64,000 nucleotides of DNA, from NCBI GenBank assembly GCA_955652395.1, contig CATPBJ010000184.1, forward strand, positions 1-64,000, given 5' to 3'. The notes beneath the pieces were generated by a model. The model was given only the letters and a program-made list of their open reading frames with translations. It had not been told where the DNA came from and did no database searches. The translations under genes and the position numbers were made by a program. This document shows positions 15,339 to 38,180 of this stretch, piece after piece; position 1 is the first letter of the stretch; each line of letters opens with the position of its first letter. This DNA is from an uncultured Terriglobales bacterium. GTDB taxonomy: Bacteria; Acidobacteriota; Terriglobia; Terriglobales; Acidobacteriaceae.

Positions 15339-17333
15339 TTATGCGGGCCGTGCCGTCGGACCTTCACCGGCCAGAGCCGGGTCCATAAGTGCGCGCTTGA
15401 GGCGCATCTTTTCCTCCAATAGGGCCTGTAATCGGCCCGTTTGCTGCCCGCACGCGACCTGCAGTTCTCTCTGGACCCGCTCCAACTTGCGCCTGAGCTG
15501 GATCCGCCGCAGGGCCCGCACCGCCCCCTCCAGCCGCTCGGCGGTAAGTTCCTCGTCATCCTTCATAAGGATGGAAGCCAGCAGGCTGCGGTCGCCATCG
15601 CGCAGGGGCAGATCCGTGACGTGGGTCGCCTCAGACCCAAGCAGGACTTCGATTAACGACTCGGCAGCCACCCCTAGGTGCAGGCCCTCGCTCTTCAGGG
15701 CGAACTGGGCCTGGCGGGCCGGGTCGAATTCCTCCTCCGCGCCGTCGCGGGCAGACAGATGCCCTTCAGAGGTTTGCATCTCGGTGGCCGAGGCCAGGGC
15801 CCGAATCAGTATTTTTTCGGCGTCAGTGATCTGAACATCCGCAGCCGCCTTCAGGGTGGCCGTGGATCGGTTGGCAGCGGCATGCTTCAACTCCTGCCGC
15901 AGGACCGACGAATCGATGCCCAGCTTTTGCGCCATCTCCCGCGCCAGTTCATCGCGAACGATCCGGCTGGGCACCCGCTGGATGTGGGGCAGCAGATAGT
16001 TCACCGCCTTCACCTTGCCGTCGGCGCTGCGGACAGGGAACTGCGCCCGCGCCCGTTCGATGAGATAGTCGAAGTACTTCTGCGAATTCTTCAGCGCACC
16101 GGCGTAAGCCTCTTTCCCCTTGCGCCGGATGAACAAGTCAGGGTCGAAGCCCGCCTCCAGGCTAAGCACCTTGACCTGAAATTCTTCTTCTACTAGCAGT
16201 CCCAGAGTGCGTTCGGTGGCCTTAGCGCCAGCCGTGTCCGGATCGAAATTGACCACCACGTTCTTCGTGAAGCGCCCCAAAAGCCGAGCCTGAAGCTCGG
16301 TAAAGGCAGTCCCCGAGCTTGCGATCACGTTGTGGAACCCCGCGGCAAAAACCGAAATACAGTCCATCTGTCCTTCCACCAGAATGGCGTAGTCCAGCTT
16401 GCGAATCGCCTCTTTCGCCTGGTCGAGATTGAACAGCAGGCGCGACTTGGAATAGATCGCAGTCTCAGGCGAATTCAAATACTTGGGGCCAGCCTTCTCA
16501 TCGGCCGAGAGAGTACGCCCGGTGAAGGCAATCACGCGTCCGGCTTCGTTGGCGATGGGAAACATCACGCGGTTGCGAAACTTCGAATAGAAAACCGGAC
16601 CGCGGGCGTCGGCCGTCGGAGTTCGGCCCTCCGCCACCGCCGCAGAATCAGGCACCTGCCTTGATTCCACCGGAGACGCCGGATTTTGCTGAGAACTGAG
16701 AACTGAGCGCTGAGCGCTGGTTTCTCGAGGTCTGCGGTCTGCCGCCTGACGTCCGCCTTCGTCCTTCCATGAAAACAGCCCGCTTTCCCGCAGGGTGTCT
16801 TCTTCAAACTGGCCCTTCATCCGGTCACGCAGCACAAACCCCGAATCCGGCGCGTATCCGATCCGAAAGGTTTTGATGACGTCCTCATTCAGCCCACGCC
16901 CCACGAGATATTCCCGCGCATGCGCTCCTTCCGGCCGCTTCAGATATTCCTGAAAGAAGGCGCAGGCACGCTCGTGCGCATCAAGCAGCGCCCGACGGAG
17001 TTGGGCTTCCTTGGCCTCAGCAGGACTCGAGTAGATCACTTTGGGCAGGGCAATCCCCAGCTTCTGTGCAACGGCTCTCACGGCCTCGGGAAAAGTAATG
17101 TTCTCGACCTTCTGGACAAAACTGAAAACGTCGCCGGAAACCCCGCACCCGAAGCAGTGATAAAACTGCCGCGTGGCATGCACCGAGAACGACGGCGTCT
17201 TCTCGTTATGAAAAGGACACAGGCCGCAGTAGTTCTGCGCCCCTGTCTTCTTCAGCTTGACGTAGTCGCCGACTATGCGAACGATGTCCGCCTGCTGCTT
17301 GACGGTTTCCTTGAAGTCGCTGGAGTCGGTCAT
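15339..17333 (-). CDS. dnaG: DNA primase DnaG with repeat-derived insert
   Basis: DnaG makes RNA primers at the replication fork. The 664 aa show the CHC2 zinc-binding domain (YCGLCPFHNEKTPSFSVH, CFGCGVSGD), the catalytic core (YSKFRNRVMFPI, GRVIAFTGR), the TOPRIM motifs (ILVEGQMDCIS, NFDPDTAGAKA) and a C-terminal helicase-binding region. Residues of about 185-230, between FSWKDEGG and RGPVFYSKF, form a low-complexity insert encoded by heptad-repeat DNA (16690-16761). rpoD follows downstream. Confidence 0.97.
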   Translation of the reverse strand: MTDSSDFKETVKQQADIVRIVGDYVKLKKTGAQNYCGLCPFHNEKTPSFSVHATRQFYHCFGCGVSGDVFSFVQKVENITFPEAVRAVAQKLGIALPKVIYSSPAEAKEAQLRRALLDAHERACAFFQEYLKRPEGAHAREYLVGRGLNEDVIKTFRIGYAPDSGFVLRDRMKGQFEEDTLRESGLFSWKDEGGRQAADRRPRETSAQRSVLSSQQNPASPVESRQVPDSAAVAEGRTPTADARGPVFYSKFRNRVMFPIANEAGRVIAFTGRTLSADEKAGPKYLNSPETAIYSKSRLLFNLDQAKEAIRKLDYAILVEGQMDCISVFAAGFHNVIASSGTAFTELQARLLGRFTKNVVVNFDPDTAGAKATERTLGLLVEEEFQVKVLSLEAGFDPDLFIRRKGKEAYAGALKNSQKYFDYLIERARAQFPVRSADGKVKAVNYLLPHIQRVPSRIVRDELAREMAQKLGIDSSVLRQELKHAAANRSTATLKAAADVQITDAEKILIRALASATEMQTSEGHLSARDGAEEEFDPARQAQFALKSEGLHLGVAAESLIEVLLGSEATHVTDLPLRDGDRSLLASILMKDDEELTAERLEGAVRALRRIQLRRKLERVQRELQVACGQQTGRLQALLEEKMRLKRALMDPALAGEGPTARPA
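16690..16761. repeat. Heptad-repeat block inside dnaG
   Basis: On the plus strand four heptads run without a break (TGAGAAC twice, TGAGCGC twice, 16690-16717). Nine bases later come five more (GAGGTCT, GCGGTCT, GCCGCCT, GACGTCC, GCCTTCG, 16727-16761). The same text type fills many spacers in this window. Inside dnaG it falls in the inter-domain segment and the reading frame is preserved. Confidence 0.8.
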
Positions 17334-34942: not shown

Positions 34943-35335
34943 ATGATCTTTGACGATACCCTCTACGCACGTGACAACGAGATGGATGAATTCGGCGACA
35001 GCGGAGCCTACGGCGATTCGCTGGAAGAAGACTACGAGGAGGAAGAAGAGGAAGAGGAAGCTGAAATAGCGGGCGTGATCGAGCCGCAGCCGGAGCCGGT
35101 TACGCCAGCTCCAGCCGCCCCCCGACCCTCCGGTGGCGGAGGCTCGCCGAAGCCGCCGCGCAAACCAGCGGCAAAAAAACCTGCCAGGAAGAAGCCGGCC
35201 CGAAAAGTTGCCAAGAAGAAGCCGGCCAAGAAGAAGGCGGCGCGCAAGCCCGCAAAGAAAAAAGTCGCGAAAAAGCGGCCCGCACGCAAGGCTAAAAAGT
35301 CAGCCGGTCGCAAAGGCAAACGCGGTCGCCGGTAG
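34943..35335 (+). CDS. Histone H1-like protein with acidic N-terminus
   Basis: This 130-aa protein has two opposite halves. Residues 1-42 are strongly acidic, including the run EDYEEEEEEEEAE. After a Pro/Gly linker, residues 66-130 are a Lys/Ala/Arg/Pro tail (KKPARKKPARKVAKKKPAKK) like the C-terminus of histone H1 and bacterial AlgP or Hc1 proteins. The tail should bind DNA non-specifically and the acidic part may modulate it; that role is inferred. AGGAGG precedes the ATG. Confidence 0.85.
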   Translation: MIFDDTLYARDNEMDEFGDSGAYGDSLEEDYEEEEEEEEAEIAGVIEPQPEPVTPAPAAPRPSGGGGSPKPPRKPAAKKPARKKPARKVAKKKPAKKKAARKPAKKKVAKKRPARKAKKSAGRKGKRGRR

Positions 35336-36647: not shown

Positions 36648-37334
36648 TCAGTTCACATCCTGCAAGATAGTGTAAGAAAAACCGCCGGACGGGTTGTTCA
36701 ACCCCACGAATGTCCGAACTTGGCCCGAACTCAAGGGGAGCGAGCCGGTGTCAATGACGGCGAATTTCTGGCCCACCGACGTGAGCTCGATCTCGTAGGT
36801 GCCCGCCGCCAAAGACTGGTAGCTGGCGATCGCGCCAAAGCCCAAATTGGTTAGCGTAGGGCTCACGGTAGTCAGAGCGGTTCCTGGGGTAACAATGTAG
36901 ACATCGGCTGGTCCCAGGTTCGGCGAAGCATTGACCAGGCGAATTTTGAAATCGCCCGAGGCTGGCGCCGAGTTGTTGTCGGTAAGCACGAGGTTGGCGA
37001 TTGATGAAGAAAAGTTGGAAGAAATGACAGTCGTGTCCGAACCCGAGATGAGACTGATGGATTGTTGCAGGAGCGTAGTGCTTGATCCCGAAGGCTCAAT
37101 TCCAATCTGACGGGACCCGGATTTCACAGATAGATAGCCGGTGCTGGTGCCATAAGCGAGGTTGTTCGACACCGATTTACTGTCCACCAGCACGTCGAGA
37201 CTGGATTCGTCCGGCACCGCATTCATCAGGCGGAAGCGAGTGTCTCCTGCTGAACCACATCCCGCCATGAGAAGGATTGTTGCCAGACCCAGGATGCCGG
37301 CACACAACGACATCAAGCGCAAGATTCGTCCCAC
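36648..37334 (-). CDS. DUF4397-domain lipoprotein
   Basis: The 228-aa protein has a lipoprotein signal (LGLATILLMAGC) and then two DUF4397-type halves: FRLMNAVPDESSLDVLVDSK with YLSVKSGSRQIGIEPSGS, and IRLVNASPNLGPADVYIV with YQSLAAGTYEIELTSVG. It is probably anchored at the outer membrane or periplasm. It is divergent from the Spy/CpxP-like gene and shares the spacer containing the CpxR-box-like array. Confidence 0.85.
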   Translation of the reverse strand: MGRILRLMSLCAGILGLATILLMAGCGSAGDTRFRLMNAVPDESSLDVLVDSKSVSNNLAYGTSTGYLSVKSGSRQIGIEPSGSSTTLLQQSISLISGSDTTVISSNFSSSIANLVLTDNNSAPASGDFKIRLVNASPNLGPADVYIVTPGTALTTVSPTLTNLGFGAIASYQSLAAGTYEIELTSVGQKFAVIDTGSLPLSSGQVRTFVGLNNPSGGFSYTILQDVN

Positions 37335-37427
37335 GATTTCACCCCTTGGATTTTGAAAGTTTGGAATTTACGCGCTGAACAAAAACTGACTGATGCAGAG
37401 GGTTCAATCCGGAGTTGCAACCGCTGC

Positions 37428-37518
37428 GTAAAGAGTGCGTCAAGACAGGTAAAGACGTGCAAAGCAGTCGTCGGTCGATTGCTTTACGAACTTTTACGTG
37501 ACTTTACCAAGTCTTTAC
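37428..37518. promoter_or_regulatory. Phased GTAAA/TTTAC array resembling CpxR boxes
   Basis: TTTAC occurs at 37483, 37493, 37503 and 37514, separated by five, five and six bases. On the other strand this is GTAAA-N5-GTAAA, the CpxR box pattern. Two GTAAA words in the other orientation lie at 37428 and 37449. The array is about 100 bp upstream of the Spy/CpxP-like start and within 180 bp of the divergent lipoprotein start. Binding by a Cpx-type OmpR-family regulator is inferred. Confidence 0.65.
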
Positions 37519-37619
37519 TTTATTGCTGATCGCGAAGTGTTCTAACTAGTAGATACATTTTTCCTCCGGGAGTCGAAAGCTTCCAGCAATCGCATGAATA
37601 TGAATTGGAGTGTACCTAC

Positions 37620-38180
37620 ATGTGGAATTCAATAGTCCCCAAGGGATTTTATTTCAGTCGGAGCGAGCGCCGATCGTTGGTTGCCACTCCGGTTGCCACT
37701 GCCTTTCTTGCAGCGTTGCTTAGCCTGGGCTTCGGTGCGGGGAATGCCTTTGGGCAGGATGCACAGGATGCGCCGCCACCTCCGCCGCAGCAAACCGGTC
37801 AGCAACCAGACCAGCAATCCGGCGCGGGGATAGGACGGGGCATGGGTCATCGTCCAATGCCGAGTGTGGACGATCAGATCAAGCACTTAACCAAGAAGTT
37901 GAAACTGAGCGATGACCAGCAGGCGAAGCTGAAACCCATCCTCGAAGACCAGCGCAAACAAATGGAACAGATTCACAACGACTCGTCGCTTTCCCGCGAA
38001 GACCGGTTCAGCAAGATGCAGGAGCTTCGGCAAAGTTCCGACACTCAGATCAAGAGTGTGCTGAACGATGACCAGCAGAAGAGTTTCGACAAGATGCGCG
38101 AAGAGCAACGAGACCGGATGAAGCAATGGCGCGGAGGCGGCAACGCTCCTCCCGCCGGTGCCAGCCCGGACAATCAGTAA
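37620..38180 (+). CDS. Spy/CpxP-like periplasmic protein
   Basis: The 186-aa protein has an N-terminal signal (TPVATAFLAALLSLGFGAGNAFG), a proline/glutamine-rich linker and a helical domain with two LTxxQ-like motifs (LSDDQQAKL, LNDDQQKSF), as in the Spy/CpxP envelope-stress chaperones. The ATG at 37620 has GGAG nine bases upstream; the track's start at 37605 is a TTG. Regulation by the upstream GTAAA array is likely. Confidence 0.85.
   Translation: MWNSIVPKGFYFSRSERRSLVATPVATAFLAALLSLGFGAGNAFGQDAQDAPPPPPQQTGQQPDQQSGAGIGRGMGHRPMPSVDDQIKHLTKKLKLSDDQQAKLKPILEDQRKQMEQIHNDSSLSREDRFSKMQELRQSSDTQIKSVLNDDQQKSFDKMREEQRDRMKQWRGGGNAPPAGASPDNQ

Follow-up and report, generated by a model that had tools for sequence, protein, structure and literature searches.

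The Cpx system is the textbook envelope-stress response and has been studied almost solely in proteobacteria. Throughout the OmpR/PhoB family, regulators typically recognize direct repeats at 10-11 bp, of the kind considered here. In E. coli, cpxP is strongly induced by Cpx (PMC9600279). In Pseudomonas aeruginosa, CpxR targets include cpxP and RND efflux genes, and GTCAA is a selected half-site variant that is accepted in place of GTAAA (PMC12802237). The literature searched, mostly without subscription journals, yielded no relevant paper on Cpx or LTXXQ proteins in Acidobacteria.

The window analysed here, a whole stretch of 64,000 nucleotides from an uncultured bacterium of the order Terriglobales, carries two tandem-repeat arrays that are very probably CpxR-type operators, at which a CpxR-like regulator would bind and activate envelope genes under stress. 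Judged by its sequence, the operator is of a known type, and the phylum Acidobacteriota is new for it.

Two back-to-back arrays in the window

The arrays share a gap of about 270 bp between divergent LTXXQ and DUF4397 genes, one four-box array per gene. Two means of recognition were used: a four-box pattern and model R1, whose training set was 13 arrays from other genera, with the source genome (G000) and the same-genus genome G001 left out. The features are as follows.

36648-37334, - strand: divergent DUF4397 lipoprotein gene (Pfam PF14344, E=1.3e-34; lipobox-like LLMAGCGS in the translation)
37428-37464, - strand: second predicted four-box operator, facing the DUF4397 gene (pattern, and R1 match at 37423-37454, E=1.4e-5); boxes 37464-37459 (CTTTGC), 37454-37449, 37444-37439 (CTTGAC) and 37433-37428
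37482-37518, + strand: predicted CpxR-type operator of four boxes, oriented toward the LTXXQ gene (pattern, model R1 and conservation); boxes 37482-37487, 37492-37497, 37502-37507 and 37513-37518
37538-37546, + strand: TG-T-TCTAAC, a probable extended -10 element that begins 19 nt past the array; the offset and the TGTT core recur in relatives
37605-38180, + strand: gene for an LTXXQ/Spy-CpxP-like secreted protein, likely start ATG at 37620, GGAG at 37608-37611

The LTXXQ-side array reads CTTTACGAACTTTTACGTGACTTTACCAAGTCTTTAC (37482-37518), successive boxes beginning at intervals of 10, 10 and 11 bp. The four TTTAC words at 10-11 bp spacing that the first-pass annotation had described start exactly at 37483, 37493, 37503 and 37514 on the + strand, giving TTTAC-N5-TTTAC-N5-TTTAC-N6-TTTAC. 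The same annotation had raised the possibility that the DUF4397 lipoprotein belongs to the same regulon, and this has gained ground, since the gene has an array of its own, CTTTGCACGTCTTTACCTGTCTTGACGCACTCTTTAC (37464-37428; CTTTGC-N4-CTTTAC-N4-CTTGAC-N5-CTTTAC), which falls inside the interval annotated at the time and had been overlooked. Within the window, the three-word TTTAC pattern is unique to the LTXXQ-side array, and it is absent from all 100 dinucleotide-preserving shuffles of the window; TTTACN4-6TTTACN4-6TTTAC has a single additional site in the 4.4 Mb source genome. With up to three mismatches allowed, the four-box pattern has 17 matches across 26 related genomes, compared with 1 for the reversed-pattern control. 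In the 64 kb, R1 matches nothing but the two window arrays; the E value of the LTXXQ-side array is 1.6e-6 when the window is searched and 1.1e-4 for the whole genome.

Loss of the arrays in close relatives that retain the gene was looked for and not seen: both are kept in G001, whose LTXXQ protein is 77% identical, and in an acidobacterial MAG contig (L004), where identity is 54-56%. That contig also carries a third four-box array (L004:3653-3690). It lies a short way past the LTXXQ gene, ahead of a gene for a 204-aa outer-membrane beta-barrel protein, which may be a further envelope target. More distant LTXXQ homologues were found as well; those from genomes that lack a close CpxR homologue are all without upstream sites of this kind, and of those in CpxR-bearing genomes, one (G004) has a two-box site and several have no site. 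The window also encodes, at 34943-35335, a short protein whose Lys/Ala/Pro-rich tail resembles histone H1 (KKPAKKKAARKPAKKK); this protein is likewise kept beside the corresponding L004 locus (836-1237).

The product of the gene at 37605-38180 had been annotated as a signal-peptide protein with LTxxQ motifs. Signal-peptide-like features and the LTXXQ-like motifs LSDDQQ and LNDDQQ are present, but the protein scores 20.6 bits with Pfam LTXXQ, under the curated/gathering cutoff of 24.3. Homologues in relatives align to it across the LTXXQ region, and it is best regarded as a divergent LTXXQ member. Its predicted structure has four confident helices (88-176), and PDB searches by sequence and by fold gave no significant match.

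A standard sigma-70 promoter scan found no promoter, and the extended -10 element emerged only from cross-promoter comparison. When the promoters of relatives are aligned, most arrays facing LTXXQ genes are followed, at a distance of about 19 nt from the last box, by a TGTT core and then a -10-like hexamer. With this fixed offset to the extended -10, the LTXXQ-side array would end adjoining the -35 position, as an activator would sit. The DUF4397-side array has no TGTT -10 element at the usual offset.

The regulator locus and its association with the arrays

A search of the source genome for a CpxA/CpxR-like pair located one on contig C25, away from the window locus. There, an array with 0 mismatches to the pattern (C25:12789-12825) separates an LTXXQ gene from a divergent operon in which the gene for an OmpR-family regulator of 241 aa is followed by that for a HAMP-HisKA-HATPase kinase of 476 aa. 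The regulator has receiver and Trans_reg_C domains (Pfam E=1.1e-26 and 4.8e-22), and its best match of all NCBIfam families is CpxR at 237.7 bits, with OmpR only 4 bits less (233.9). Because 237.7 bits is under the CpxR equivalog cutoff of 341, the protein is termed CpxR-like, a member of the CpxR clade rather than a CpxR equivalog. In a tree of 41 rows, small and with long outgroup branches, the regulator and its relatives group with E. coli CpxR and with Aeromonas, Neisseria, Sinorhizobium and Novosphingobium homologues (support 100/88), while OmpR, BaeR, CreB, RstA, PhoB and others lie outside this clade. The C25 regulator has SPFDRSIDMHVSKIRKKL as its DNA-binding helix, where E. coli CpxR has TPFDRAIDMHISNLRRKL and OmpR has SAMERSIDVQISRLRRMV. 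The two best NCBIfam matches of the kinase are both CpxA (345 and 258 bits, under the equivalog cutoffs), the next family scoring 164. The LTXXQ protein at this locus, secreted and divergent from cpxRA, reaches 45.2 bits with Pfam LTXXQ (cutoff 24.3) and 61.7 bits with the CpxP family model, under that model's cutoff. The pair, the shared operator, the CpxR-clade regulator and its near-CpxR recognition helix all support the earlier suggestion of a Cpx-like circuit in this lineage.

In relatives with a close CpxR homologue, the regulator gene and a divergent LTXXQ gene usually flank a four-box array; no array is present at nine paralogous regulator loci. Exact GTAAA-N5-GTAAA sites occur in 27 of 48 CpxR-homologue loci of the phylum, counted in 420 bp upstream with some genera over-represented, as against 0 in shuffles and 0 of 9 paralogues. 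A two-box TTGACAATTCTTTAC site is oriented toward some of the cpxR genes, which suggests autoregulation. R1 matches occur in 9 of 25 genomes, all nine of which also encode a close homologue of CpxR (E no higher than 1e-77); one of the ten genomes with a homologue lacks a match (G002, 56% identity), and none of the 15 without one is matched. The Fisher probability of this co-occurrence, computed by hand, is near 5e-6, a figure that ignores shared ancestry and is partly circular because many of the R1 matches are those at the cpxR locus. In G010, an array is kept at the LTXXQ gene though cpxRA sits on another contig; the site therefore follows the target, as expected for a trans-acting regulator.

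Two candidates were set aside along the way. L174, the best full-length CpxR-like match in the L004 genome (51%), was rejected as operon partner, having neither an array nor a divergent LTXXQ gene; the partner CpxR of that MAG is represented only by its N-terminus, cut by contig ends, beside two arrays (L177, L178). A three-box site (L001) was rejected as the same operator on account of its other spacing and unrelated genes.

At good R1 scores, the predicted regulon of the source genome comprises about three loci: the cpxP-like/cpxRA locus, the window pair and a CarboxypepD_reg protein on contig C183. The C183 array (16101-16137, L128) precedes a large secreted CarboxypepD_reg/SdrD_B-like protein and is conserved in G001 (L126) and G446 (L179). 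Further candidate targets matched by R1 in other genomes are MacA-like adaptors and DUF2846 and DUF5666 proteins, and most array-associated proteins look exported or envelope-bound. In G158 and G111 (L147, L148), the array faces a MacA-like adaptor gene instead of an LTXXQ gene. An array also faces a MacA-like efflux adaptor gene next to or near a cpxR-like gene in G004 (contig C171, L125), and in Novosphingobium (L114) a macrolide-transporter pair is divergent from a CpxR-like regulator. Two similar sites of another type, at C35:24730-24765 and C39:1358-1393 of the source genome, consist of GTTCACAA(C/T)TTTTTAC followed by TTTTTAC or GGTTTTAC repeats and possibly belong to a different tandem-repeat regulator.

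Proposed mechanism and competing explanations

We infer the following sequence of events. An acidobacterial CpxA-like kinase would sense envelope stress and phosphorylate the CpxR-like OmpR-family regulator, two phosphorylated dimers of which would bind in tandem to the four GTAAA/GTCAA half-sites, one helical turn apart and next to the -35 region on its upstream side, and would activate the extended -10 promoter. Its target at the cpxRA locus would be the CpxP/Spy-like gene; in trans, it would act on the window LTXXQ and DUF4397 genes and on the CarboxypepD_reg protein.

The words are short and AT-rich, and the repeats might be a chance or compositional feature of an AT-rich promoter; this origin, to which we assign a negligible probability, is excluded by the shuffles (0/100), the reversed-pattern control (17 vs 1 in 26 genomes) and the independent model R1 (E=1.6e-6), and conservation at 54-77% protein identity also speaks against it. 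A different member of the OmpR/PhoB family, rather than the CpxR-like protein of C25, could bind the arrays, given that one-turn direct repeats are common to the family and that the genome encodes further OmpR-family regulators; such a binder is improbable, however, as the arrays stand at the cpxR-like locus and are absent at nine paralogous regulator loci, their presence tracks the CpxR homologue among 25 genomes, and the half-site is the CpxR word GTAAA/GTCAA.

The direction of control is a separate matter. CpxR bound at the arrays may instead repress, or do so on the DUF4397 side, stress then lowering expression; this would be a variant of the preferred explanation and compatible with CpxR binding. 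E. coli CpxR is annotated as a dual regulator, and the DUF4397-side array is without a recognizable -10 at the usual offset, but the LTXXQ-side array, just upstream of -35 and at a fixed offset to the extended -10, has the geometry of an activator, and the E. coli counterpart cpxP is induced by Cpx (PMC9600279), making repression unlikely, if somewhat less so than a different binder. Activation by the CpxR-like regulator remains the preferred reading.

Comparison with described Cpx systems

If this reading is correct, the matched set of operator, regulator, kinase and CpxP-like protein extends Cpx to an abundant, little-studied soil phylum and offers testable functions for DUF4397 and other uncharacterized envelope proteins. 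It would also be a case of a regulator and its DNA site that have remained matched through a very long period or, alternatively, moved jointly by transfer. A broader proposal is that the circuit, the operator and the cpxP|cpxRA layout form an ancient cross-phylum system which Acidobacteriota have in common with Proteobacteria, that protein and DNA site were retained as a unit, and that the acidobacterial version controls lineage-specific envelope proteins such as DUF4397 lipoproteins; we consider it as likely as not.

The E. coli cpxR-cpxP gap, CTTTACGTTGTTTTACACCCCCTGACGCATGTTTGC, was compared by eye, since R1 run against the E. coli cpxP locus found no match there. Like the acidobacterial site, it has a GTAAA-N5-GTAAA core and a position between cpxP and cpxRA. 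Its boxes, spaced almost as in the acidobacterium, are CTTTAC, TTTTAC and CTGAC, the third thus including TGAC, and a weak fourth, TTTGC. The four-box array of the acidobacterium is cleaner, its third box being TTGAC and its spacing 10-10-11, and the window arrays stand at genes unlinked to cpxRA. P. aeruginosa CpxR sites are alike in accepting both GTAAA and GTCAA half-sites and unlike in that many have N6 spacing and mostly two boxes are listed (PMC12802237). Because of the boxes in the E. coli gap and the acceptance of GTCAA in P. aeruginosa, the acidobacterial array may be read as a cleaner version of a known operator. Set against the CpxARP envelope-stress system as a whole, the detectable regulon is small here (about three loci in the source genome), with no DegP-type target among the R1 matches, and includes DUF4397 and CarboxypepD_reg proteins, whereas the C25 locus has the kinase, the regulator and the divergent LTXXQ protein in the same cpxP|cpxRA layout.
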